The notes beneath the pieces are model-generated. The model made no database searches and was not told the DNA's origin. It worked only from the letters and a program-made list of their open reading frames with translations. Source: a virus. Taken from it: DNA of 25,896 bases. Below are positions 2,310 to 24,626 of the stretch, in pieces (position 1 is the stretch's first letter; each line of letters begins with the position of its first letter). Where the stretch lies: the IMG/VR virus record IMGVR_UViG_3300031957_002099, positions 1-25,896 of that record, one strand, 5' to 3'. The translations under genes were made by a program, and so were the position numbers.

Positions 2310-2725
2310 TTTGATTCTCCAGAGGTTATCATTTCAGCAAGCTCGTGCCAGTCTGATTTCGTCATATTTCCTTTTTTGTAAAAAGAACAAATTTTTAAAA
2401 AGTCAGACTTAGAAGGTCTGTTGTATAAGTCCATTGCATGCTCGCCATTAACTAAAGCAGTAAAGTCTCTTTCTATTCTTATTAGTATGCAAGATTTGCC
2501 TTTTCTTTTTACATACTCTTTTGCCCAGAAAACTTGATTTAGTTTTAATCCGCTGTTGAACCTTTTCTTTGGCCATTTTTTAAGATATTTCAACTCGACC
2601 CAACCAGACTTACCGTTGTCTAAATAATGAACATCTGGCATGCCTTTCATAACTTTATTTTCAACTCTCCACATTTTTAAAGGCAGATTGTTTCTTACTA
2701 ACGTCCAGAAATTACTTTCACTCAT
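2303..2725 (-). CDS. VRR-NUC-like PD-(D/E)XK nuclease
   Basis: A 140-residue protein with the core of the PD-(D/E)XK fold: Glu22, then GMPDV with Asp31, a short turn, then WVELKYLK with Glu44 and Lys46. This arrangement is typical of small phage VRR-NUC or Holliday-resolvase-like endonucleases. Family members act on structured DNA such as branched or recombining intermediates; the substrate here is not known. The gene overlaps the end of the upstream SNF2-type helicase by eight bases, and pairing of a helicase with a VRR-NUC is frequent in phages, which suggests a shared role in processing replication or recombination intermediates. Confidence 0.75.
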   Translation of the reverse strand: MSESNFWTLVRNNLPLKMWRVENKVMKGMPDVHYLDNGKSGWVELKYLKKWPKKRFNSGLKLNQVFWAKEYVKRKGKSCILIRIERDFTALVNGEHAMDLYNRPSKSDFLKICSFYKKGNMTKSDWHELAEMITSGESKW

Positions 2726-4415
2726 CCTCGTCCTCCGACATAAATATTGATATTGGGTCTTTTGTTATAACATCAGCGATGTTCTTTTTGTCTCGCAAGG
2801 CTTTTATAATCTTGCTGTCGACTGACTTGCGAGTTTCGATATCTATATAAGTAACATTATTTTTTGTTCCTATACGGTGACATCTGTCTTCCGATTGCAT
2901 GCGTTGCTCTAGGTCGAAAGAGTTGGAATAATAAATAGCATAATCTGCTGCAGTCAGTGTTAAACCTATACCACCAGATTGGGGTTGACCGATAAAATAT
3001 TGTATCTTAGGGTCGTTCTGAAAACGGTCGACTGCGATCTCTCTAGCGTCTGTTGTTACATCTCCGTGATAACTAACTGCTAATTCACCTAATGCCCTCT
3101 CTATGGCTCTTAAATCAGCTTTAAAACGTGCCCATATGATTACTTTAGAGTCAATATCGCTAAGTATCTCTTTTAGGGCTTCTATACGAGGATTTTTATC
3201 GTTTATAGGTTGCACTCCATCCTCGCTAGGAAACCAACCGCATAATATCTGTTGAAGCCTTAACAACCTTGTTATAGCTTCGGGAGCATCGATAGTCTCA
3301 CCATCTAACTCTGCGACGAAAGTCTTCTTCATGTTCTGATAAAGCTTCTTTTGTTCAGGAGTCATTTCTACATAATGACGTTGGTATATTTTAGAAGGCA
3401 GATCTAAGCAGTCTTTTTTAAGAACTCTGTAGCTGTGACCCTCGATATTGCGAGTAAGCTCGTCGACATTCTGGTAAGAGATGACTTGTTTATTTTCGAA
3501 GCCACCCATAACACAATAACGAGCCTTAAAAGAATAAAAGCTATCATAGCCTAGTATTTGAGGGTCTAAAAATTTGAATTGCGAATAAACATCTTCCGCA
3601 CCTTTTGTTACTGGAGTGCCTGTCATTATTCTTTTAAATGCTGCTAACTTAGAAAACTTAGTTATGATCTTAGTTCGTTTTGCTCCAGGACGTTTAATTC
3701 TAGAACTCTCGTCAACAACAAGCATAACCTTATTTGCTAATAATATTTTTTGCATATAGTAGATTGCTTTCGGGCTAGTAAAAGCTTCAACATTAAAAGT
3801 GAATACTTTTAAAGCCTGCTCGGAAGTATAAATTTCATCGAACTCAACAACTCTAGACTTAGTCATATTTGAAGTATAATAGAACGACTTTCTAGGACAC
3901 CAATCAGGCATATGAGTGTTGACTTCTCTTATCCAGTTGCGGTGGACTCCATTAGGAGCAATAACAACGAGTGCAGTAATTTCACCTTTGCCATAAAGGT
4001 ATGCAGCATTGTCTATGATAACTTTAGTTTTGCCTGTTCCTTGTTCCATCAACAAAGCAAAAGACTTTTTGTCTCGACTCATATAGAATGCTTTGCGTTG
4101 GTGGTCGAAAGGCTTAGTCTTAAAATCATAATCGTCATTGCTAGGAAGGTCAGCTTCTTTCATTCTGAGGTTTTCTTCCATGTCTTTTAAATTTCGGATG
4201 TACTTATCTAGGTCAGGCATTGCAGACTCATCCCACTCCGCATTAGGGAAGAACTTATGCAACCGTTCAATGTTCGCACCAGTCGGATCAAAAAGCAGAT
4301 CTCTGCCAACCCACTTTTTATATCCAGGAAGGCTAGATAATTTCTCAAATGTGTCGCCATCAAGCTTACACTTGATGACGCAATATTTGCCGAAGTCTGC
4401 TTTGGTTATTTTCAC
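2718..4415 (-). CDS. SNF2/SF2-type DNA helicase (DEAD-box-like ATPase)
   Basis: A full superfamily 2 helicase. Numbered from the upstream ATG at 4436 (572 residues), it has motif I EQGTGKT at 131-137, motif II VDESS at 241-245 (DESS instead of DEAH), motif III TGTP at 272-275, motif V GGIGLTLTAA at 488-497 and motif VI QSEDRCHRIG at 514-523, as in SNF2 ATPases. I prefer the GTG at 4415: it overlaps the upstream stop as GTGA, has AAAGG upstream and gives a cleaner N-terminus (MKITKADF). About 100 residues before motif I are unassigned. Likely role: duplex translocase or remodeller in phage replication or recombination. It is followed by a nuclease gene with an eight-base overlap. Confidence 0.92.
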   Translation of the reverse strand: MKITKADFGKYCVIKCKLDGDTFEKLSSLPGYKKWVGRDLLFDPTGANIERLHKFFPNAEWDESAMPDLDKYIRNLKDMEENLRMKEADLPSNDDYDFKTKPFDHQRKAFYMSRDKKSFALLMEQGTGKTKVIIDNAAYLYGKGEITALVVIAPNGVHRNWIREVNTHMPDWCPRKSFYYTSNMTKSRVVEFDEIYTSEQALKVFTFNVEAFTSPKAIYYMQKILLANKVMLVVDESSRIKRPGAKRTKIITKFSKLAAFKRIMTGTPVTKGAEDVYSQFKFLDPQILGYDSFYSFKARYCVMGGFENKQVISYQNVDELTRNIEGHSYRVLKKDCLDLPSKIYQRHYVEMTPEQKKLYQNMKKTFVAELDGETIDAPEAITRLLRLQQILCGWFPSEDGVQPINDKNPRIEALKEILSDIDSKVIIWARFKADLRAIERALGELAVSYHGDVTTDAREIAVDRFQNDPKIQYFIGQPQSGGIGLTLTAADYAIYYSNSFDLEQRMQSEDRCHRIGTKNNVTYIDIETRKSVDSKIIKALRDKKNIADVITKDPISIFMSEDEDE

Positions 4416-5026
4416 AGTCCGAACCTTTCTGCACATATTGGTCCGATGCCTCGCTCAATGCTATCGTGCCTAGTTAGCTCTCGACCACAACAAGCACAAC
4501 TACCAGTCCTGCGACCATAAGCAACTGCTGCGGAAAGAGGATCTTTAGAGATCTGCTCAAGCTTCGGTAAAATATCTTGAGAACCGAACCACTTGCCATC
4601 TTTTACTTTACCTGCATACTCACCTTCAATCTTAACATATAAAGCACCTGCATTTACACCATGGTCTGGAGCTCGAGAAATAACAAGATCCTCAAAACGG
4701 AACTTAGGTGTTTTAATAGCCTCGTGAGCTTTGCTGAACATTTCAGCTACATTGCTAAGATCGACTGAAGGAGCTTCAGCTTTGTTAGCCTTACTAGCTT
4801 TTACCTTCATAAGCATTGCAACTGCAGCACCTGTCTGCTTTTCGGACAATGAACCACGCTTACTAAATTGCTCTACTAAAGACTTAGCAAAAGAATTCCA
4901 AGAAGAAATTTCTCTAAGAGCTCTAATCAATCCAGGATTATCTGAATTGAATCTCCCTACTTTGTGTGCCAAGTCCTCATTCCCAAATACTAATACTGCT
5001 AATTCTGCTGTTGAACTCATTCCCAT
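4412..5026 (-). CDS. DUF6011-like protein with C-terminal zinc-binding motif
   Basis: A 204-residue protein. The first 170 residues contain helices, an Ala/Lys-rich linker and a beta segment (GALYVKIEGEYAGKVKDGKW). The last 28 carry a compact cysteine module: Cys177, Cys180, RELTRHDSIERGIGPICAE and Cys198, which matches the DUF6011-type pattern often found at the C-terminus of phage proteins. It probably binds zinc; the function is unknown. ATG 5026 is chosen because the in-frame TTG further upstream lies in the Shine-Dalgarno (TTGAGAAAGGA). A strong promoter cassette lies directly upstream, and the SNF2 helicase follows with a four-base overlap if its GTG start is used. Confidence 0.75.
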   Translation of the reverse strand: MGMSSTAELAVLVFGNEDLAHKVGRFNSDNPGLIRALREISSWNSFAKSLVEQFSKRGSLSEKQTGAAVAMLMKVKASKANKAEAPSVDLSNVAEMFSKAHEAIKTPKFRFEDLVISRAPDHGVNAGALYVKIEGEYAGKVKDGKWFGSQDILPKLEQISKDPLSAAVAYGRRTGSCACCGRELTRHDSIERGIGPICAERFGL

Positions 5027-12089: not shown

Positions 12090-12329
12090 CTATTTAAGTT
12101 TAAAAGTAAATCTCTTTTTTACTTTATTCCATATGCTATCAACTTCTTGAGTTGCTTCTTCGACCTTTGTATATTGAACTTTGATCGATGGTTTTCTTTT
12201 ATTTAAAATGTAGCTTATGGTTCTTACAGTAACATTTAAATCTTTAGCTATCTCAGACTTTTCAAAGTTATCTTTCATTGAATGAACTCTGTCGATAAAT
12301 TCTTGATTGTACTTTTGCTTAAATGTCAT
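12090..12329 (-). CDS. Small helix-turn-helix protein, possible regulator
   Basis: 79 residues from ATG 12329, preceded by AGGAG at correct spacing; the longer 12377 start would lie inside thyX. The segment SEIAKDLNVTVRTISYILNK is a typical helix-turn-helix (SEIAKDLNV as helix 2, turn, TVRTISYIL as recognition helix) following an upstream helix (NQEFIDRVHSMKD). The C-terminal third is basic. It is likely a DNA-binding regulator, and a candidate to act on the promoter cassettes or GGTAAC repeats in this window, though nothing links it to them directly. Confidence 0.72.
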   Translation of the reverse strand: MTFKQKYNQEFIDRVHSMKDNFEKSEIAKDLNVTVRTISYILNKRKPSIKVQYTKVEEATQEVDSIWNKVKKRFTFKLK

Positions 12330-12337
12330 TTTGACTC

Positions 12338-12985
12338 CTATGGATTTAGTGACTTGCCCATTGATGGTGCAGCCCACTGGGTTGGGGTTAAGAACGGTTC
12401 AGCCCATGGGTGAACATTTACAACTTCCTTAACCATTAGCTTGAAAACATTTTGATATTCACCTTGGGCTCTGGGAGACAGCCTTGACTTTGCCATCTCA
12501 CTTAGCGTTCTTAAATTGAACTTTGCTACGATATTAGTGTGAATGTTTGTAGGCAATATTCCTCTAGCATCCTCTGCAGCAATACCTAAGTCTCTTAGCT
12601 CTTGATATTTATCGTTTATCATTTTCATAGCATCATCGTAAATTACATTCGCAGTTTCGTCTACATATATTTTTTCTGGAGTGTAATAGCTAAAGCCTTG
12701 CATATCTACTGTTCTTTGAGATTGCTGAGCATATGAAGCTTGACGAGTTCTTACAAACTGATGAGTGAACCCACGACTGACTTCACGAATGTTGAATGTG
12801 TAGTCAATGAACTCCCAAGACGATCTAATCGTATTAAGCATGTAATCGAGCTCTGCTTTCTTTTTATCTTCATCCCACTGGGATATTTTATCATAGGCAT
12901 CGTCATCATTCATAAGACGAGTATTTTTTGTGAACAACAGCAAGTCTACTGCGTCCGAGGTATAATTTACAAGTTGTACTTTCAT
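12338..12985 (-). CDS. thyX: Flavin-dependent thymidylate synthase ThyX
   Basis: 215 residues from ATG 12985, chosen because it overlaps the upstream stop (ATGA) and follows AGAAAGGAG. The ThyX signature RHRx7S appears as R79-T-R81 with Ser89 (FVRTRQASYAQQSQR); the usual middle His is Thr. HQF upstream and ARGILPTNI downstream are also typical. ThyX makes dTMP from dUMP using methylene-tetrahydrofolate, FAD and NADPH, supplying dTTP for phage DNA. The gene directly follows an FAD oxidoreductase gene. Confidence 0.95.
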   Translation of the reverse strand: MKVQLVNYTSDAVDLLLFTKNTRLMNDDDAYDKISQWDEDKKKAELDYMLNTIRSSWEFIDYTFNIREVSRGFTHQFVRTRQASYAQQSQRTVDMQGFSYYTPEKIYVDETANVIYDDAMKMINDKYQELRDLGIAAEDARGILPTNIHTNIVAKFNLRTLSEMAKSRLSPRAQGEYQNVFKLMVKEVVNVHPWAEPFLTPTQWAAPSMGKSLNP

Positions 12986-15137: not shown

Positions 15138-16601
15138 TTATATAGAAAAATATTTTAATCCTCTTGGACCAATTAAATACAAATTCTCCTTGGTTCTTGT
15201 TAGTGCAACGTACCATACTCTGTTCTCCTCGTCTGTTCCTAGATTGTCCCAACTTAGCTTTCCCATGTCTGTTATTAATACAACATTGTCTGCCTCGCCA
15301 CCTTTGCTTTGATGGATTGTTGATATTGTTATTCTTGGGCTGTCTTTAAATTTTTCTCCATTGCGTAGGCAAGATCTCAAATATTCTCTTTCTTCGGGTG
15401 GCAGACCTTTTAACATTGTCATCCAGTCTTGGCTCTTAGCTGCTTGCGGCAGACCCATATCAGAAATTCTATATGAATCTTTTTTATCTAGTTTAACTTT
15501 AAAATTAAAAAAGCCTATCAAATTTTTAGCTTCATGTACAGATATTTCTTTATCGACACGCAACTTTTCCCAAGATGTTATTGCTAGAGTTTCGTCACTG
15601 TCTAAAGAGCTCTTGCCATTGTAATTGTATGCAAAGCCTTGTTGGCGGACAACCTTCTTTACTCTGTTTAAAAGGTATTTACTCCGACTCATACAAAGCC
15701 AAGTTCCCTCTTTGCTGAAGTCAACATTGTCTACATCTGATACATAGTTGACAGTTCCTTTATCTAATCTTGGTTGCCATGGCTTTGCATACCTATTTTT
15801 TATTCTGTTAACAACATCATTAGCCAATCTGTGGACTGATCTAGGAATCCTAAAGCTTTGAGGCAATATTCTTTTATCACCTTGTAAACTTAAAAACTTA
15901 GCAACGTCTGCTCCTGCCCATCCGAATATAGCTTGGTCGTCGTCGCCTGCGATGTAAACTTCGGAAGCTTCTGCGGAAGCAATAATTGCCATGCGGTATT
16001 GTAGGGAACTTAAATCTTGAGCCTCGTCAACTATGCATATGTCTATAGGCAAGGACGAGTTGTATTTTTCTAACATGTCAGTAAAGTCTAACAAGCCATT
16101 TTCTTTTTTAAAAGTATAAAGAGATTTGTGATATTGATTAACAGCATGCAGGGTTAAGTCTCTTTCATTCGTCATATAATATTGATCCTCTATAGAACGA
16201 ACACCAACTCTGGCCAAAGACTCAACTCTAGAACATTTATCTCCTAAACCATAGCCAGTGTGCAGACCTAGATTCTCATCATAGATGCCTTTAAACTCTA
16301 CACCCATAGCTTTACCCAACCTACGATAGTGGGAGTCGGTCATTACTTCGTCTCGTTGCAACCCAAGAACTTTAAAAGCTAAAGAGTGCAGTGTTCTAAA
16401 GTAAGGAAATCTATCTGCATCAAAACCAAACTGTGCCATAGCTCTTTCTTGAGCTTCGGTTGCTGCTTTGCGAGTGAATGCTAGATAAGCAATCCTTTCA
16501 GGAGGAACTCCTCTTTTCAGGCTCTGTTCTACTATGTTTATAAGAGTTGTTGTCTTGCCTGTTCCTGGAGGTCCAAGTATTATCTGAACGTGTCTTCTCA
16601 T
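15138..16601 (-). CDS. UvrD/Rep-like superfamily 1 DNA helicase
   Basis: 487 residues with a complete SF1A set: motif I GPPGTGKT (10-17), Ia AFTRKAATEA (41-50), II VDEAQD (191-196), III GDDDQAIFGWAGA (219-231), IV region QSFRIPRSV (248-256), V TIHQSKGGEAD (428-438) and VI VWYVALTRTKENLYLI (462-477). This is a 3'-5' translocating helicase type; it is compact compared with UvrD (about 720 residues) because insertion domains 1B/2B are reduced. No DnaB-type replicative helicase is visible in the window, so this or the SNF2 protein may unwind the fork. AGAAAGGA precedes the ATG. Confidence 0.95.
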   Translation of the reverse strand: MRRHVQIILGPPGTGKTTTLINIVEQSLKRGVPPERIAYLAFTRKAATEAQERAMAQFGFDADRFPYFRTLHSLAFKVLGLQRDEVMTDSHYRRLGKAMGVEFKGIYDENLGLHTGYGLGDKCSRVESLARVGVRSIEDQYYMTNERDLTLHAVNQYHKSLYTFKKENGLLDFTDMLEKYNSSLPIDICIVDEAQDLSSLQYRMAIIASAEASEVYIAGDDDQAIFGWAGADVAKFLSLQGDKRILPQSFRIPRSVHRLANDVVNRIKNRYAKPWQPRLDKGTVNYVSDVDNVDFSKEGTWLCMSRSKYLLNRVKKVVRQQGFAYNYNGKSSLDSDETLAITSWEKLRVDKEISVHEAKNLIGFFNFKVKLDKKDSYRISDMGLPQAAKSQDWMTMLKGLPPEEREYLRSCLRNGEKFKDSPRITISTIHQSKGGEADNVVLITDMGKLSWDNLGTDEENRVWYVALTRTKENLYLIGPRGLKYFSI

Positions 16602-16662: not shown

Positions 16663-18189
16663 TTAGAACTCTTCTGTTATTGCACTCGGGACATCTAATT
16701 CTTCGTCGTCGAAAAACTCTGGCTCAGGCACTGACCATACTTTAACTGGCTTAGATTTAATTCTAAATGTTTTTCTATCGCCACCCAACAGCCTTAACCA
16801 AGACCATATTTGATGTTGGGTTGTATATCTAAAACGTCTTGCCTCTAGATATATAAATAAGTCTTCAGACCGAAAGTAAACTTTTGCTTCGTCAGAGTCG
16901 TGCCATGGCTTGCCATTCATTATTTCGTCTTTTTGACGAGCTTGGACTTTACCTGTTAAAAAGCTATCTAGCATTTTTTCGAACTGACCTTGGGGTGAAG
17001 CATCGTCTGGGTCGACTATTACTTCTACATTTTCTAACAGCTGGTTTATCCTTTTTTCCCACTTAGGTGCTGGCATTGTGCTCGGACATTTGTTTAATTT
17101 TTCTACACATATTTTTTGGAGTTGTCTTTGGTCTAGTAATTGGGGTGTTGTTACTTCTATTCTTTCACCTTGCATCTCTATGTACCATCTTACAGACTGA
17201 CGATTTTCAGTTTCGTATTTTGTTATGGCGTCAACCTCTAAAGCTAGACCACCACCAACACCACCTATGCCATGGTCTCGCTTCATGCATTTAGACTTTT
17301 CGCAATAGTTACATATTGGACTTTGTTTACATGTGTAGGCATATTCTTTTTTGCTGATGCCTTTTACTAATCCATTAATCTCGGAGGATGGTAAAGGCTC
17401 GCTAACATGTTCATAATTAAACTTCATTAAATCTTCTTGCCAGTCGTCAGGGTTCTTCTTACGATAATAAACACCAACATTGAACAGAGAAATGTTTCGT
17501 CCACCTTCAGGGAAGCCCATAGTCATAATATGTTGAAGGCATGGTGGTCCATCGCTAAAGTGATCAACGAGTTCTGGTTGTATTTTTTCTAGAGCCTCGA
17601 ATGTTGTTTTCTTTTTTTCAGCTAATTCTATAAACTCTTTTAGGTTTAATTTTTTATTTTTATTTATTGCATAGCGTTCTGTTTTGTCGCCATCCCAATA
17701 ACATAAGTTTATCCAGTTGCCTCTGTCACGTTCGTTCGCTCTAGATATTTGCTTGGGGAAAACTTCCGACCCACCATAGCCTAGTTGAGCAGCGAACTCA
17801 TTGAGCTTTGATACCATATCAATAGCAGGAATGGCAGGCTCACAAAAAAGATAGAGGTGAGCACCGCCAGACTTAGAACGACATAGTACCAAAGGTGTAT
17901 CACGAATCTTTTTTTCCAGTGATTCAAGACTTTCATTTAATTTTACCTCACCTCTAATGTCAATATCAATAACACCAAAATGACAGCTATTATTATTTAA
18001 TAGTGGAATAACTCCTAATATATATTCGCCACCATTAAGATGTTCTTTAAAATTAATCTCAGTTGCTGGGTCACTTACTGTTACTGCTCGACCCGACATT
18101 TTTCCGTCAGCTTCTTTTTTATTGACCCTATATTGGCCATGAGCTGATTCGAAACCTTTAAACAAATCCATAAATCTTTTTACATACAT
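16663..18189 (-). CDS. AEP-superfamily (TOTE-type) DNA primase
   Basis: 508 residues. The archaeo-eukaryotic primase active site is visible: FGVIDIDIRG with Asp75 and Asp77, SKSGGAHLYLF (105-115) with the conserved Ser/Gly/His111, and GNWINLCYW (157-165). A second domain contains PPCLQHIM (Cys217), GGRNISLFNVGVYYRKKNPD, and a cysteine cluster with Cys287, Cys293, Cys296 and Cys301; four of these could hold an iron-sulfur cluster or zinc as in PriL-like domains. The C-terminal third is unassigned. It would lay primers for the DnaE polymerase. AGAAAGGA stands before ATG 18189; the upstream gap contains a strong hairpin. Confidence 0.88.
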   Translation of the reverse strand: MYVKRFMDLFKGFESAHGQYRVNKKEADGKMSGRAVTVSDPATEINFKEHLNGGEYILGVIPLLNNNSCHFGVIDIDIRGEVKLNESLESLEKKIRDTPLVLCRSKSGGAHLYLFCEPAIPAIDMVSKLNEFAAQLGYGGSEVFPKQISRANERDRGNWINLCYWDGDKTERYAINKNKKLNLKEFIELAEKKKTTFEALEKIQPELVDHFSDGPPCLQHIMTMGFPEGGRNISLFNVGVYYRKKNPDDWQEDLMKFNYEHVSEPLPSSEINGLVKGISKKEYAYTCKQSPICNYCEKSKCMKRDHGIGGVGGGLALEVDAITKYETENRQSVRWYIEMQGERIEVTTPQLLDQRQLQKICVEKLNKCPSTMPAPKWEKRINQLLENVEVIVDPDDASPQGQFEKMLDSFLTGKVQARQKDEIMNGKPWHDSDEAKVYFRSEDLFIYLEARRFRYTTQHQIWSWLRLLGGDRKTFRIKSKPVKVWSVPEPEFFDDEELDVPSAITEEF

Positions 18190-18271: not shown

Positions 18272-19066
18272 CTACATAACATCATCATTCGGGGAGTCAG
18301 GAGCAACTTTAACATCGCCACTTTGTATGTTCTTACGGAACTCACGTGCCTCGAGGTATATACTTTGACCTGAGTCGACATTTTTTAGTATGCCACCCGA
18401 CTTAGAATCGAACTTCATTGACACTTCCCAGTTGAACCATGAGCCCATATCATTTTGCTCTGGGACAGATGTAAGAGTATATGCTGTCCAGAACATTGCT
18501 GGGTTGATAGATCCTTTGCCTGATGGGTGAGGTATCTGAAGCCTGTTGATCATTGAGTTCCATTTTTTAGACTTCTTAATGCCTGAAGAACTCATAGATA
18601 TAATTGCTGGGGAATATCCTCCGTCATCCTCAACAACATAGACGAAGTATTCAGCCGTTGCCACCATTGAATTGCCGTCTGGTGTTCGGAGCTTGCCTCT
18701 GTCGTCTTGTACGCAACTGTCTAGGTTTGCAGGTTGCAAGCCATGATCTCGGATAAGCTTCCGATCATCGCTCCATTCGATAAAAGTTTTGCGATAGCTT
18801 ACAGGAACAATCGTTATTCCAGCTTCACCATCACTCGCCTTGCCAGAAACATTATCATAAATCATTCCAGCTTCCGCACCCTTAACATGAGCAGCATCTG
18901 CTTTATTGACCTCTGGACTTTGGGCTTGTAGTATTTTAAGACGAGGGATCAACATGTCGTCAGCTGTCATGTTCTCGCCTGCTGTACCAGCATCTTCTAA
19001 TAAAATGCTAGGGTCGAATGCAATTACATTGCTTTCTTCTTTTACTTCTACTTCATTTTTAGCCAT
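18272..19066 (-). CDS. Conserved phage protein, possible single-strand DNA-binding protein
   Basis: 264 residues. Segments such as DMLIPRLKILQAQSPEV, GEAGITIVPVSYRKTFIEW, EYFVYVVEDDGGYSPAIISM and KKSKKWNSMINRLQIP are beta-rich and resemble a conserved phage group located next to primases. The C-terminal tail is acidic and flexible (VAPDSPNDDVM), as in many SSB proteins that recruit partners. No decisive motif is visible, so the SSB role rests on position, fold impression and tail. The upstream stop is overlapped by TAATG, so it is translated with the coiled-coil protein. Confidence 0.5.
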   Translation of the reverse strand: MAKNEVEVKEESNVIAFDPSILLEDAGTAGENMTADDMLIPRLKILQAQSPEVNKADAAHVKGAEAGMIYDNVSGKASDGEAGITIVPVSYRKTFIEWSDDRKLIRDHGLQPANLDSCVQDDRGKLRTPDGNSMVATAEYFVYVVEDDGGYSPAIISMSSSGIKKSKKWNSMINRLQIPHPSGKGSINPAMFWTAYTLTSVPEQNDMGSWFNWEVSMKFDSKSGGILKNVDSGQSIYLEAREFRKNIQSGDVKVAPDSPNDDVM

Positions 19067-19656
19067 TATACACCTCCTGTTAATTTGGCTTTACGACCTA
19101 CATATATTTTAAATAGGTCATGGGGGACATCCTTCCCGTCAGACAACTGTTCTTTTATAAAAGAATTTAGTCTGCCGTGATGAACACCGACTGCTCGGCG
19201 ATAGAATAAGTTCCGCTCACGCAACTCTTCTGTAAAGTCATTGCAAGCTTTATCTTCGCCTTTACTGAACTGAACCTCAACATTACTTTTAATCAAGTCG
19301 CCAGCATTATTACCACGCAACCAATCAAAGCATTGTTGTTGACGTAGCTCTAGTTCAGGTCTGTCTTCAGGCTTGGCACGCATTATTGCCGTTGCTGAAG
19401 GTATTGAACCAGAAGCAATATCTTGAATTTCAACCTTAGCACCATTGTTAAGAGTGAAGTCCTTCATATTCAGTTCTTGCATTAAATCGGGCAAGTCCTG
19501 TTCAGCCAACTTAGTCAGGTTCTGCTTCTTTTCTTTCAATAGCTTTTCTAGATCTTCGATTTCTTTTTCGGTATCGAACATCTTTTGAGCTAAATCAGAT
19601 ACTGCACCTAGTGAATTTGACGCAGGTGCTACGTCGTCAAGCAGATTAATCGTCAT
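19066..19656 (-). CDS. Conserved phage protein with N-terminal coiled coil
   Basis: 196 residues. Residues about 20-55 form a strong coiled coil (TEKEIEDLEKLLKEKKQNLT); LPDLMQELNMKDFTLNNGAK and an EIQD strand follow, then a helical C-terminus containing FYRRAVGVHHGRLNSFIKEQ. This layout occurs in unknown phage proteins next to the SSB-like gene and suggests an accessory recombination or replication factor; no catalytic residues stand out. Ribosome site AGAAAGGA before ATG 19656. Confidence 0.6.
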   Translation of the reverse strand: MTINLLDDVAPASNSLGAVSDLAQKMFDTEKEIEDLEKLLKEKKQNLTKLAEQDLPDLMQELNMKDFTLNNGAKVEIQDIASGSIPSATAIMRAKPEDRPELELRQQQCFDWLRGNNAGDLIKSNVEVQFSKGEDKACNDFTEELRERNLFYRRAVGVHHGRLNSFIKEQLSDGKDVPHDLFKIYVGRKAKLTGGV

Positions 19657-19668
19657 TGTTTTCCTTTC

Positions 19669-19914
19669 TTAACTATGGATTGGCAAGGCATCGAATGTAT
19701 CAAAAGGGATATCAATCCATCCCGACTTCGTTTCATCCAATAAAACTCGCACTCTCATTTCTTCATCGTTATGTGACATTGCAAACACCACAGGAAATAA
19801 AGTGTCTTCGGTGTGCTTCATAAAATCTTTCTTGCGAAGCGTCCTGTTCCTGTTCGTTTTTATTGCCACATTATTTGCTTTACGCAGATCTTCTTTTGTA
19901 AAACATTTAACCAT
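19669..19914 (-). CDS. Small hypothetical protein, 81 residues
   Basis: N-terminus is basic (MVKCFTKEDLRKANNVAIKT), followed by beta-like stretches (FPVVFAMSHNDEEMRVRVLL and SGWIDIPFDTF). The ATG overlaps the upstream stop (ATGGTTAA) with AGAAAGGAG as ribosome site. Function unknown. Confidence 0.65.
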   Translation of the reverse strand: MVKCFTKEDLRKANNVAIKTNRNRTLRKKDFMKHTEDTLFPVVFAMSHNDEEMRVRVLLDETKSGWIDIPFDTFDALPIHS

Positions 19915-20281
19915 TTACTTTCTCCTTTCTTAATTCTAAGGCAACTGGCATATACCAACCTTTGCGTCTATCCCTTTCGCCTTCTTCCATATTGCGTTCC
20001 CAACGTAGGACACGCACGACTGGTGACATTTCAGATGCAATCATAACAGCTATCATTACAGCAATAGGGTCACCACCTCCTGGCCAAAGAATATAATCCT
20101 CTGGGCAAAAATCTTTCATTATCTTTCTAGCTTTCTGTATCGATGGGCTGGGCAGGAACTGAGGCTTTTCGTTCGGTTCGAAAACAATCTCAAGCGAACC
20201 ATAACGTGCAGCGTCAGTAAGGTCTGGAGTCCAACCGAACTTATTCTTTACAGGTCGATTTACGACATAAACTTTTGGCAT
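19907..20281 (-). CDS. Conserved marine-phage-type hypothetical protein, 124 residues
   Basis: The protein reads MPKVYVVNRPVKNKFGWTPD, then ARYGSLEIVFEPNEKPQFLP, DFCPEDYILWPGGGDPIAVM and ends with WERNMEEGERDRRKGWYMPV. A D-Y-x-L-x-P-G-G-G-D-P segment followed by a hydrophobic helix suggests a compact alpha/beta fold; I recall comparable unnamed proteins in early regions of marine phages. It is the first larger gene of the minus-strand block and probably early. ATG 20281 follows GAGAAAGGA. Confidence 0.68.
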   Translation of the reverse strand: MPKVYVVNRPVKNKFGWTPDLTDAARYGSLEIVFEPNEKPQFLPSPSIQKARKIMKDFCPEDYILWPGGGDPIAVMIAVMIASEMSPVVRVLRWERNMEEGERDRRKGWYMPVALELRKEKVNG

Positions 20282-20562: not shown

Positions 20563-20628
20563 AAATAAATTCCTTTCTAAGCATTTAATTAGTGTAATTC
20601 AAGAAAAATCAAAAGACAACAACTTTTT

Positions 20629-20890
20629 TGCGTTACCGCACTTATTAATAAATAACAATGCCGTAACCAAAGTTCTGGCGTTACCGCACTGCAGTTGTTT
20701 CTAGATACGTCCATGGAATTTTAGATTGTACTATATAAGATAATATTTTGAGGTTAAAAATATTTTTCTAAAATTCGTGAATTTGCGGTAACGTCGGTAA
20801 CGAAAGGTCTTTTGTTTATTAAATACAATCGCTTGGCGACGTTACCTAAGTCTGAAAATGGTGGTAACCGAAACCAGTGTTTGGTAACTA
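20629..20890. repeat. GGTAAC repeat cluster around AT-rich core: candidate origin or operator array
   Basis: Seven GGTAAC cores in both orientations lie at 20632-20637, 20680-20685, 20787-20792, 20796-20801, 20841-20846, 20863-20868 and 20883-20888, with a degenerate CCGTAACCAAAG at 20661-20672. Several share flanks: GTGCGGTAACGC twice, GGTAACGTCG twice, GGTAACNAAAG twice. The first is nearly dyad symmetric (TGCGTTACCGCA). The two copies at 20787 and 20796 are nine bases apart. The stretch 20700-20780 between them is very AT-rich (TATATAAGATAATATTTTGA), as expected for an unwinding element. This 600-base non-coding zone between divergent transcription units is the best origin candidate; a repressor-operator array is the main alternative. 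Confidence 0.6.
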
Positions 20891-21085
20891 AAGTTTTTTA
20901 ATCTCTGATACCATTTCTTTTTCTAAATCTTTACAATCGTTTATGTGTTTTACCAGATCGTTTTTAATATGATTCAGAACATCTTTGTGTGTTTTCAAAT
21001 TATTCCTGCCTCCATACCATTGACTTTTTTCTTTGTCGTCCTTTATGTGTATGAATAAAGTTCTTGCTATTTTTAAATTATCCAT
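20888..21085 (-). CDS. Small hypothetical protein, 65 residues
   Basis: MDNLKIARTLFIHIKDDKEK, then a Gly/Arg turn (WYGGRNNLKTHKDVLNHIKN) and a charged helix to the end. The ATG overlaps the stop of the 21227 gene (ATGGATAA), which is the operon pattern of real genes here. Likely early; no family recognised. The last repeat of the GGTAAC cluster touches its stop codon. Confidence 0.6.
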   Translation of the reverse strand: MDNLKIARTLFIHIKDDKEKSQWYGGRNNLKTHKDVLNHIKNDLVKHINDCKDLEKEMVSEIKKL

Positions 21086-21227
21086 TGCTCTGATCCTTTA
21101 CTATATGCTTATAGCCTTTACTGGTAGGATATTCTTCGTTAAGAATTTCAATCCAACCTTTTAAATTTTGTGGATTAGTAGCAATAAACATTAGTTTGTC
21201 ATTTTCATATGTATATACTGTTTTCAT
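21078..21227 (-). CDS. Small hypothetical protein, 49 residues
   Basis: Starts MKTVYTYENDKLMFIATNPQ and continues NLKGWIEILNEEYPTSKGYK, a compact beta-alpha-like mini-protein. AGAAAGGAAAAGAAA stands directly before the ATG, matching the standard ribosome site of this genome, and its stop overlaps the next gene by eight bases. It is the first minus-strand gene from the divergent control region. Function unknown. Confidence 0.65.
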   Translation of the reverse strand: MKTVYTYENDKLMFIATNPQNLKGWIEILNEEYPTSKGYKHIVKDQSNG

Positions 21228-21368
21228 TTTCTTTTCCTTTCTGACAGTTGTAAGTTAAGTATATATTATTTTTTTATTGTTTTTCGTTTTTTTAAAAACT
21301 TTTTTTCTAAAGTCTTGTAAGTGATTGTTTTTAAACAAATCAAAGTTTAGAATATTTTAAAAAAAGAC
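21228..21368. other. Divergent AT-rich control region between minus and plus operons
   Basis: No gene seen. A minus-strand -10-like TATACT lies at 21263-21258 without a convincing -35. The stretch 21268-21310 is almost entirely A/T with long T-runs and may be intrinsically bent. The plus-strand dyad and promoter A follow. Confidence 0.5.
21322..21342 (+). promoter_or_regulatory. AT-rich dyad upstream of promoter A
   Basis: TGATTGTTT and AAACAAATCA form the best inverted repeat among the four cassette dyads (one extra base in the second arm). It lies 26 bases before the -35 box, preceded by TAAG as in copies B to D. Confidence 0.55.
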
Positions 21369-21397
21369 TTTACTTATGCTTCAAGACGAGATACACT
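21369..21397 (+). promoter_or_regulatory. Sigma70-type promoter, cassette copy A
   Basis: Plus strand: -35 TTTACT at 21369-21374, 17-base spacer, -10 TACACT at 21392-21397, then CTTTATAT as in copy C. It is the only copy facing right and drives the two-gene early plus-strand unit. Confidence 0.85.
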
Positions 21398-22690: not shown

Positions 22691-23233
22691 GTGGTTTCAG
22701 ACAAAGGAAAGAAAGTTCAAGTTCAAAGACCTATTAACAATGGTCGCAAGGTTGAGCCAGAAAAGTGGGATGGTAAGTTCAAATCTGTTGAGCCTTTAAA
22801 GAATCAAAAGCCAGCCCAACATCGTCAAGATCGTTATAAAAAGTGGAACCATCCAGCCACAATCAATTGGATCATGGGTCAAGCTGACCCTGTAGGATTT
22901 CTAGCTTCGGTTATGCAAGGCAAAGAAATGTTTCCTGTTTACACTCAGGATCAAGATGGAACAGTGCAACATGTTGGTAAGGTTGGAGCTGACCCTGAGT
23001 TGAGGGTTATGGCTGCGAAGACTTTGCTTGGCAAGTGTGTTCCTGATTTAAAGGCTGTTGAGATAACAGCACAAATAGAAGAAAGAAAGGTGCTTGACAT
23101 AAGCAAATTAACAGACAATGACCTCACCACAATTGAACGAGTTCTTGAACACGCTGTCATTGAAGGAGATCCGAGCGGAGAGAATGAGGAGATCTCTGAA
23201 GGAGTTTACCAAAAACTCATGGCAGGCGATTGA
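22691..23233 (+). CDS. Probable small terminase subunit (TerS)
   Basis: 180 residues from GTG 22691, preceded by AGGAGGG, which is a strong ribosome site. The N-terminus is basic and disordered; the core NHPATINWIMGQADPVGFLA, DPELRVMAAKTLLGKCVPDL and KAVEITAQ is helical; the C-terminus is acidic. Position immediately upstream of TerL and overlapping it, and a helical DNA-binding-like core, make this the likely subunit that recognises phage DNA for packaging. Sequence alone does not prove this. Confidence 0.7.
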   Translation: MVSDKGKKVQVQRPINNGRKVEPEKWDGKFKSVEPLKNQKPAQHRQDRYKKWNHPATINWIMGQADPVGFLASVMQGKEMFPVYTQDQDGTVQHVGKVGADPELRVMAAKTLLGKCVPDLKAVEITAQIEERKVLDISKLTDNDLTTIERVLEHAVIEGDPSGENEEISEGVYQKLMAGD

Positions 23234-24626
23234 ACCAGGACGAGACTTTCACGACAACTGGCACATTGATGCTATATCCGAACATCTGCAGGCAGTTGTT
23301 GAAGGAGACATTAAACGTCTTATAATTAATATTCCACCTCGGCATATGAAGTCTATCTCGGTTGCGGTTGCGTTGCCTGCTTGGACTTGGACCATACAGC
23401 CAAGCAAAAAGTTCTTGTATGCATCTTATGCAGGGTCACTTTCTATTAGAGATTCGGTTAAGTGTCGGAGGTTGATTGACAGCCGTTGGTATCAACAACA
23501 CTTTGGTGAGTCTTTTAAGCTAACAGGCGACCAGAACCAAAAGCAAAGGTTCGAAAATGACAAGACTGGTGCAAGGATCGCTACATCGGTTGATGGTGCG
23601 TTGACAGGTGAAGGTGGTGACATAATCGTAATTGACGATCCGCACAATGTTCGAGAGAGTGAATCGTCAACAGTTCGTGATGGTGTTTTAGAGTGGTGGG
23701 ATCAGGCTATGCAGACTCGTCTTAATGATCCTAAGACTGGTGCGTTTATTATTATCATGCAAAGAGTTCATGAAAGAGACCTCACTGGCCATATACTTGC
23801 AAATGAACTCGGTGAGGAGTGGGATCATTTATGCATTCCTGCACGTTATGAAGTCGGTCACCCAACACCAACAAGATCTCGTTTAGGTTTTACAGATCCT
23901 AGAACTAAAGAAGGTGAATTGCTTTGGCCAGATAGGATTGATGTAAAAACATTAGACAATCTAGAGCGATCATTAGGCAGTTATGCATCCGCAGGACAAC
24001 TGCAACAGCGTCCAATGCCCAAAGGTGGCGGTATATTAAAACGTGAGTGGTGGGTGCCATGGGACAATCCTGATTTACCTGAGATAGAATATGTATTGCA
24101 ATCTTGGGACACTGCATTCAGCGTAAAAGAAAAGAGCTCTTATTCTGCTCGCACAACATGGGGTGTTTTTAAAGAAAGAGGAATGACCTGTGCCATTGTT
24201 TTAGAAATGTGGTATGATCGTGTTAGTTATCCTGAGCTGAGAAAGCTCGCTCAAGAAGCATATCAAGACTGGGAGCCAGACGCAGTGTTGATAGAAAAGA
24301 AGGCTTCTGGCCAATCTTTATTGCAAGATTTACGCATGGCAGGTGTGCCAGTTCTTGAGTATATGCCTGACAGAGATAAAGAAGCTCGTGCCCATGCAAG
24401 CTCGGCATTATTAGAAGATGGAAGAATTTACTTTCCATCTGACAAAAAATGGGCTAAGAATTTAATAGACATCTGTGCAGCATTCCCTGCAACCGATAAT
24501 GATGACATAGTTGACACATGTACTCAGGCTTGGTTAAGATTAAGAAAAGGTTGGTTTGTTACACATTCTGAGGATTTTGAAGAAGACGATTATGAGGAAA
24601 AACAAAGGATAACAATATATGGCTAG
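23118..24626 (+). CDS. terL: Terminase large subunit (TerL)
   Basis: 502 residues. ATPase domain: Walker A-like PPRHMKS (73-79), YASYAG (101-106), Walker B with catalytic acid IIVIDDP (169-175) and MQRVHERDLTG (214-224). RNase H-like nuclease domain: QSWDTAF with Asp331, LIEKKASG with Glu393, and FPATDNDDIVD (456-466). It packages DNA into the prohead and cuts concatemers. The ATG at 23118 gives a 116-base overlap with TerS; ATG 23184 (GGAG close upstream) is the alternative. The portal gene overlaps its stop. Confidence 0.97.
   Translation: MTSPQLNEFLNTLSLKEIRAERMRRSLKEFTKNSWQAIEPGRDFHDNWHIDAISEHLQAVVEGDIKRLIINIPPRHMKSISVAVALPAWTWTIQPSKKFLYASYAGSLSIRDSVKCRRLIDSRWYQQHFGESFKLTGDQNQKQRFENDKTGARIATSVDGALTGEGGDIIVIDDPHNVRESESSTVRDGVLEWWDQAMQTRLNDPKTGAFIIIMQRVHERDLTGHILANELGEEWDHLCIPARYEVGHPTPTRSRLGFTDPRTKEGELLWPDRIDVKTLDNLERSLGSYASAGQLQQRPMPKGGGILKREWWVPWDNPDLPEIEYVLQSWDTAFSVKEKSSYSARTTWGVFKERGMTCAIVLEMWYDRVSYPELRKLAQEAYQDWEPDAVLIEKKASGQSLLQDLRMAGVPVLEYMPDRDKEARAHASSALLEDGRIYFPSDKKWAKNLIDICAAFPATDNDDIVDTCTQAWLRLRKGWFVTHSEDFEEDDYEEKQRITIYG

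Follow-up and report, generated by a model that had tools for sequence, protein, structure and literature searches.

The array of short repeated words described here is probably an iteron-type phage replication origin. It was found in a marine phage sequence of 25,896 bases from IMG/VR, the whole of which is referred to below as the window and which is probably incomplete. The words are clustered at 20632-20888, their layout is conserved to the base pair in related phages while their letters change at fixed positions, and the arrays occur together with a module of replication genes. Origin function itself is inferred and has not been demonstrated by experiment. An iteron origin had been proposed in an earlier note on this sequence, and that reading is supported by the clustering, by the conservation and by the location of the GC-skew minimum, the last being confounded by divergent transcription.

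The repeat array and its surroundings

GGTAAC occurs seven times in the window, and all of the copies lie within 257 bp (20632-20888), four on the + strand and three on the − strand. Shuffled windows contained a mean of 6.4 copies, but these were scattered over the full length. An unbiased scan of all 6-mers placed GGTAAC first for local clustering in the window (log P −27); the strongest 6-mer among 60 dinucleotide-preserving shuffles, AAAAAA, was weaker (log P −18). It is apparent that the earlier note was correct in describing seven copies in both orientations within about 260 bases. The one degenerate copy that it mentioned was identified as GTAACC, at 20663-20668.

The sites are described relative to a central TATA element on the − strand (CTTATATAGT, 20730-20739), which served as the anchor for the alignment of 50 relatives. 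To one side of it, on the + strand, are the GGTAAC sites a5 (20787-20792; GTTACC when read on the − strand from the TATA element, at −55), a4 (20796-20801; −64), a2 (20863-20868; −132) and a1 (20883-20888; −152), with an inverted GGTAAC, a3, on the − strand (20841-20846; −109). A further site not included in the earlier note, a2′, reads GAAACC on the + strand (20870-20875; GGTTTC at approximately −138 on the − strand), and its position is conserved among relatives, with variable letters. The right block consists of r1 (20680-20685) and r3 (20632-20637), both GGTAAC on the − strand, and the variant r2 on the + strand (GTAACC, or GGTTAC on the − strand, 20663-20668). The tract between a5 and the TATA element (20735-20783) is AT-rich, as had been observed previously, and is a candidate DNA-unwinding element. 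AT-rich DNA adjoins the array in the window family (38 arrays), with a mean AT fraction of 0.86 in the 20 bp at −40.

The array had also been placed in a non-coding zone between divergent operons. Oppositely transcribed blocks do flank it, but the gap is partly coding, as it contains an ORF of 65 aa (20888-21085). A σ70-like promoter read by eye, P_L (TTGTCT-N17-TACACT, 20591-20619, − strand), leads into an operon of gp32, gp33, gp34, primase and helicase genes, and similar sequences (TTTACT/TTGACT-N17-TAnAnT) were seen by eye in relatives. P_R (TTTACT-N17-TACACT, 21369-21397, + strand), likewise read by eye and an inference, points toward the terminase genes. Between the array and P_R, next to site a1, there is a 390-bp insertion (20907-21296) bearing small ORFs, namely that of 65 aa and one of about 49 aa. 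The insertion is absent from the close relative L082 and lies outside the conserved element.

Several other features of the window were recorded. Inverted words resembling AACAAC...GTTGTT surround the right block, both in the window (20590-20700) and in relatives, and in relatives a word AACRACTTRCR precedes a1 and a4; these may possibly constitute a second motif. The early gene block includes a short-chain dehydrogenase-like gene (PF00106, 10028-10702), which is unusual cargo. No Rfam family was matched by the array of the window, and an RNA element was rejected on that basis. DnaA boxes (TTWTNCACA) are absent from the entire window, and a DnaA-dependent, host-type origin was rejected accordingly.

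The cumulative GC skew was expected to reach its minimum at the array. In the window the minimum is at approximately 21.24 kb, 0.35 kb from the array, and in five long relatives (G001, G002, G006, G007 and G009) it is within about 0.3 kb. The values are 17,703 for an array at 17,712-17,944 in G001, 24,411 for one at 24,569 in G002 and 18,688 for one at 18,654 in G006. The minimum is therefore near the array, but the genes diverge at the same place, so that the minimum is not independent evidence. In the co-directional genomes of phages K21lambda1 (K21), Bhz20 and Kokobel2, moreover, skew reveals no clear origin. GC skew was thus rejected as independent proof of an origin.

Conservation of the layout and arrays in other phages

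Approximately 100 related loci were drawn from IMG/VR, using the primase and the gp34-like gene as queries. Relatives with enough flanking sequence have a cluster of short words at the same intergenic place; the word is GGTAAC where the relationship is close, and elsewhere GAAACC, GAACCC, CGTTCC or GGAAAC. Relatives were aligned on the TATA element and 38 non-redundant arrays were counted, a GnnnCC-type word within 3 bp being scored as a match. Sites a1, a2, a3, a4 and a5 were occupied in 36, 29, 32, 37 and 36 of these, respectively, as compared with only 2–3% at random offsets. The supposition that the array would be conserved in related phages was therefore well founded. Site positions are kept almost to the base, and the letters differ between phages (GTTACC, GAAACC, GTTCCC and others); fixed positions with letters that change between lineages are the pattern expected of protein-binding sites. 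The right block (about three further sites, at +50 to +105) is found in most relatives but is missing from some (L028, L029, L034, L049, L063, L070 and others), so the left block and the AT tract are regarded as the core. No second cluster of the word was found in the relatives that were searched whole, and relatives of the window have one main array in approximately 50 kb.

The replication module of the window is encoded on the − strand. It includes an AEP primase of 508 aa (16663-18189), proteins similar to Pam3 gp34 (18272-19066; annotated as ATP-binding in DSL-LC04) and Pam3 gp33 (19066-19656), a UvrD/Dda-like SF1 helicase (15138-16601) and an SNF2-like SF2 helicase (2718-4436). Also on this strand are a Pam3 gp32-like protein (19907-20281), encoded by the first long gene beside the array, and a small protein without established function (2303-2725), whose relative region in K21 is annotated as a DNA helicase. 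Profile searches revealed that gp33, gp34, the primase and the two helicases are common to the window family and distant array-bearing phages, as are the small protein (eight of nine distant phages) and, in some, gp32. Terminase and structural genes, on the other hand, are common only to the window family, 023Pt and DSL-LC04. No regulator common to the array-bearing phages was detected in these searches, which small, fast-evolving regulators could escape. That it is mainly the replication module that is common to distant phages argues against both a packaging site and a shared regulator.

Comparable arrays were found in cultured phages whose primase shares about 30% identity with that of the window, where they lie immediately upstream of the gene for that enzyme (K21lambda1, PMBT28, PSA28, VLCpiS6a, Kokobel2 and Acinetobacter phages). 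In Klebsiella phage K21lambda1, VLCpiS6a, PSA28 and Salmonella phage PMBT28, three GGAACG words stand in tandem, with an inverted pair and further words besides; the words are GGAACC in Providencia phage Kokobel2 and GTAACC/GGAACC in Acinetobacter phage Bhz20. K21 (L125, 44940-45410), Kokobel2 (L127, 14085-14535) and Bhz20 (L126, 43060-43170) each have another array, separated from the first by about half a genome and lying toward the terminase end of the map. Two origins in one phage would be reminiscent of SPP1. Both arrays of these three phages are situated upstream of early promoters, an arrangement that also fits regulation and so counts against an origin, as does the lack of AT-rich DNA flanking the K21 arrays. 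In K21lambda1, Bhz20 and their relatives, the primase and array are found alongside genes annotated for 2-aminoadenine (2-aminooxy adenylosuccinate synthetase and dATP triphosphohydrolase), and these arrays may consequently be read in Z-DNA.

In the seawater phage 023Pt_psg01 and in IMG/VR locus L108 the parts follow one another in the same order (words in tandem and inverted, a T-rich tract, TATA), with the words TGGCACA and TGTTAC and with the arrays far from the primase. Recurrence of the layout at such a distance is expected of a cis element acting on the whole genome. Evidence against the origin reading comes from three phages that carry the module, DSL-LC04, R5C and Pan1, none of which yielded a convincing array; candidates at 23.07-23.5 kb in DSL-LC04 (CCGCACC words) and at 4.7-5.4 kb in R5C were not persuasive. 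The region in DSL-LC04 (W01, 23065-23524) is non-coding, with CCGCACC repeats and a TGGCATGCCA palindrome, and is a possible origin of a module-bearing phage that lacks the standard array. A generic detector found no array in 35 kb of PB1 or in parts of CN1 and Hera.

IMG/VR was also scanned by letters alone for the pattern GTTACC-N3-GTTACC, AT tract and TATA element, in that order, which yielded 75 stretches, 73 of them newly fetched. Multi-site arrays (four or more sites, in both orientations) were present in 56 of the 73, and in 1 of 25, 2 of 9 and 4 of 18 matches to three control words; one control-word array, L270, also carries the replication module. Proteins similar to those of the window, most from the module or the terminase, are encoded at 52 of the 73 loci, and the window primase was found in none of 22 control records searched. 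Most array loci without the module have a different initiator or primase-helicase beside the array: DUF927 with HTH_56, the Cch/SaPI-Rep type (L203, L205, L210, L212 and L229), NrS-1-polymerase-like proteins (L190 and L208), a VapE-like protein (L194), a D5/P4-type helicase (L189) or a Toprim primase (L211). Such arrays are thus associated with unrelated kinds of replication gene. Because the search itself fixed the letters, it does not show how common GTTACC is among phage origins at large. One contig, IMGVR_UViG_3300028591_000050 (36,111 bases; L171, L184, L198 and L232), has four similar GTTACC arrays (GTTACCaaaGTTACCaaaGTTACC plus an AT tract) near a transposase and a terminase; these are perhaps several origins or a repeated regulatory element.

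Origin function, the site reader and rival explanations

In the mechanism proposed, several copies of a phage-encoded initiator would bind the short sites at their fixed positions (GnnnCC words, 8–9 bp apart in the tandem pair and inverted elsewhere) and form one nucleoprotein complex. That complex would open the adjacent AT-rich tract, a step that is likewise inferred, and helicase and primase would start DNA synthesis there. Given an origin, the AEP primase is the most likely reader of the sites, with roughly even chances; its binding is inferred. It would bind by means of its C-terminal winged helix, mark the origin and prime.

The sole Pfam family of the primase is AEP-TOTE (2.6e-9). The fold and motifs of a TOTE/CAPP-like AEP are present, with invariant residues D74, D76 and SKSGGAH, and the AEP core resembles CRISPR-associated CAPP (Z 18.5). 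Beyond the core there are a helical region that contains a cysteine cluster and, in the C-terminal part, a winged-helix region (residues 395-495; 16705-17007, − strand), the candidate site-recognition domain. For the model of the C-terminal part (pLDDT 82), the first Foldseek match was SaPIBov1 Rep (8tch; E 0.007, probability 0.97), and VIA-align matched it to pCW3 TcpK on oriT (Z 7.8) and to residues 436-556 of SCCmec Cch (5dgk; Z 7.6, 87 residues, rmsd 2.7). Because this part resembles the winged helix by which SaPI Rep and SCCmec Cch bind their origins, the primase could both mark the origin and prime there. Structure matches with Z below 8 could, of course, reflect a common winged-helix arrangement, and hhalign of the region against the Cch HTH (HTH_56) was weak (probability 28%). 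No AAA+ domain or helicase core matched the primase in fold searches.

The same origin might instead be read by gp34, gp33, a helicase or a host protein, with the primase acting afterwards, a lesser but serious possibility whose standing overlaps with that of the origin reading itself. There is precedent in RSF1010, in which RepC reads the iterons and RepB′ primes (PMC4234260). Both gp33 and gp34 belong to the shared module, and gp33, gp34 and UvrD have 11-16 columns that separate GTTACC-type from GAAACC-type arrays, as compared with two in the primase. The residues of the primase thus barely track the site letters, which allows for another module protein as the reader. The separating columns, however, follow phylogeny, with 2-3 changes whichever tree is used. 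Site letters track the tree just as protein residues do, and their covariation indicates no single reader. In addition, neither Pfam nor NCBIfam recognised a DNA-binding domain in these module proteins, whereas the primase has its winged-helix region. Two other binders had been suggested previously and are not supported: the HTH protein (12090-12377) was not detected in the array-bearing G006, G007 and G009, and beside the array of some families (e.g. L043 and L057) there is no zinc ribbon.

A transcriptional operator is an unlikely alternative, in which a phage regulator would act cooperatively on the divergent promoters P_L and P_R, or on one at the central TATA element; such a role, by itself or alongside an origin, is not excluded. 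The array does lie between divergent transcription blocks flanked by σ70-like promoters, the TATA element is conserved at a fixed distance, sites a4 and a5 would be approximately 60-75 bp upstream of the start of such a TATA promoter, the position of a class I activator, and the early-promoter setting of both arrays in K21 and Kokobel2 is in keeping with such a role. The array phages nevertheless share detectably only replication proteins, with the reservation about small regulators noted above, and neither the HTH protein nor the zinc ribbon accompanies all arrays. Regulators usually have several targets, unlike the single main array of the window relatives. An origin is favoured over an operator because the arrays travel with the replication module without a detectable shared regulator, and because, in other phages, the replication initiators next to arrays of these letters are unrelated ones. 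The operator alternative raised in the earlier note is thereby weakened. A packaging site (pac or cos) bound by the small terminase subunit is very improbable and was rejected: the distance from one array to the terminase genes is 0.3-4 kb in the window family, K21, Bhz20, Kokobel2 and 023Pt, some GTTACC arrays elsewhere (L169 and L232) are near such genes, and the pac site of phage P1 is hexamer-rich, but no single terminase family co-occurs with the arrays, the window terminase has no detectable relative in K21, Bhz20 and Kokobel2, whose arrays resemble that of the window, array 1 of K21 is 22 kb from the terminase and adjoins the primase, and the ends of the long relative contigs are not at the array.

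Comparison with known systems

Nothing found in the open-access literature (PMC) matched iterons of GGTAAC/GTTACC or a comparable origin in an AEP phage, and no described origin was found for phages with this AEP primase family, including the relatives with 2-aminoadenine (Z-DNA) genes. The origins of phage lambda (O iterons) and P4 (crr/ori) are similar to the array in that iterons are next to AT-rich DNA in a phage. They differ in their initiators and in host helicase loading, and the lambda iterons are inside a gene and all direct.

In the SaPI Rep/ori (SaPIBov1) and SCCmec Cch/Cch2 systems, short iterons are beside the initiator gene and are recognised by the C-terminal domains of SaPI Rep and Cch2 (PMC7581432). 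The closest structural matches of the C-terminal region of the window primase are SaPIBov1 Rep, TcpK and Cch, and phages with Cch-type proteins have GTTACC arrays. The DNA-binding domain of those initiators, however, is on an AAA+ (DUF927 or D5) helicase, a criterion not met by the window primase, in which it is on an AEP enzyme with no AAA+ found; the helicases of the window are separate SF1 and SF2 proteins. NrS-1 likewise combines an AEP enzyme of a marine phage with a sequence-specific start (TTTGGTTA, overlapping GGTTA; PMC8718748), and NrS-1-like proteins adjoin GTTACC arrays, as described above. That sequence, in contrast, is present in only two copies, one per strand, at the genome centre (PMC7102993), without an array; recognition is on a single-stranded template, and NrSPol has its own helicase domain. 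RSF1010 oriV also involves iterons and an AEP primase (RepC for the iterons, RepA helicase and RepB′ primase), but has RepC as a separate initiator and primes at the hairpins ssiA and ssiB (PMC4234260). In pRN1, an AEP protein with a winged helix (the ORF904 PrimPol) starts replication of the element, but the putative origin is a stem-loop of about 100 nt downstream of the gene, without iterons (PMC4234260).

A broader proposal can be advanced only tentatively, with less than even confidence. The AEP primase family may be an origin reader with the iteron-reading half of SaPI Rep/Cch-type initiators and no helicase, which marks and primes the origin, and a GTTACC-like code, its spelling varying over a fixed layout, may be common to unrelated phage initiators (Cch-type, VapE, NrS-1-like and D5). 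The array is a short, portable candidate origin with defined partner genes, so that origin function, the identity of the initiator and replisome loading are directly testable. Its conserved layout and changing letters offer a natural, matched series of site variants for the study of co-change between origin and reader, and the sequence rule from the search finds candidate origins in unannotated phages. Iteron origins are known; the novelty here lies in a fixed layout with changing letters, in the association with a module of AEP primase, SNF2 and UvrD proteins, and in an AEP primase that bears a Rep/Cch-like domain.
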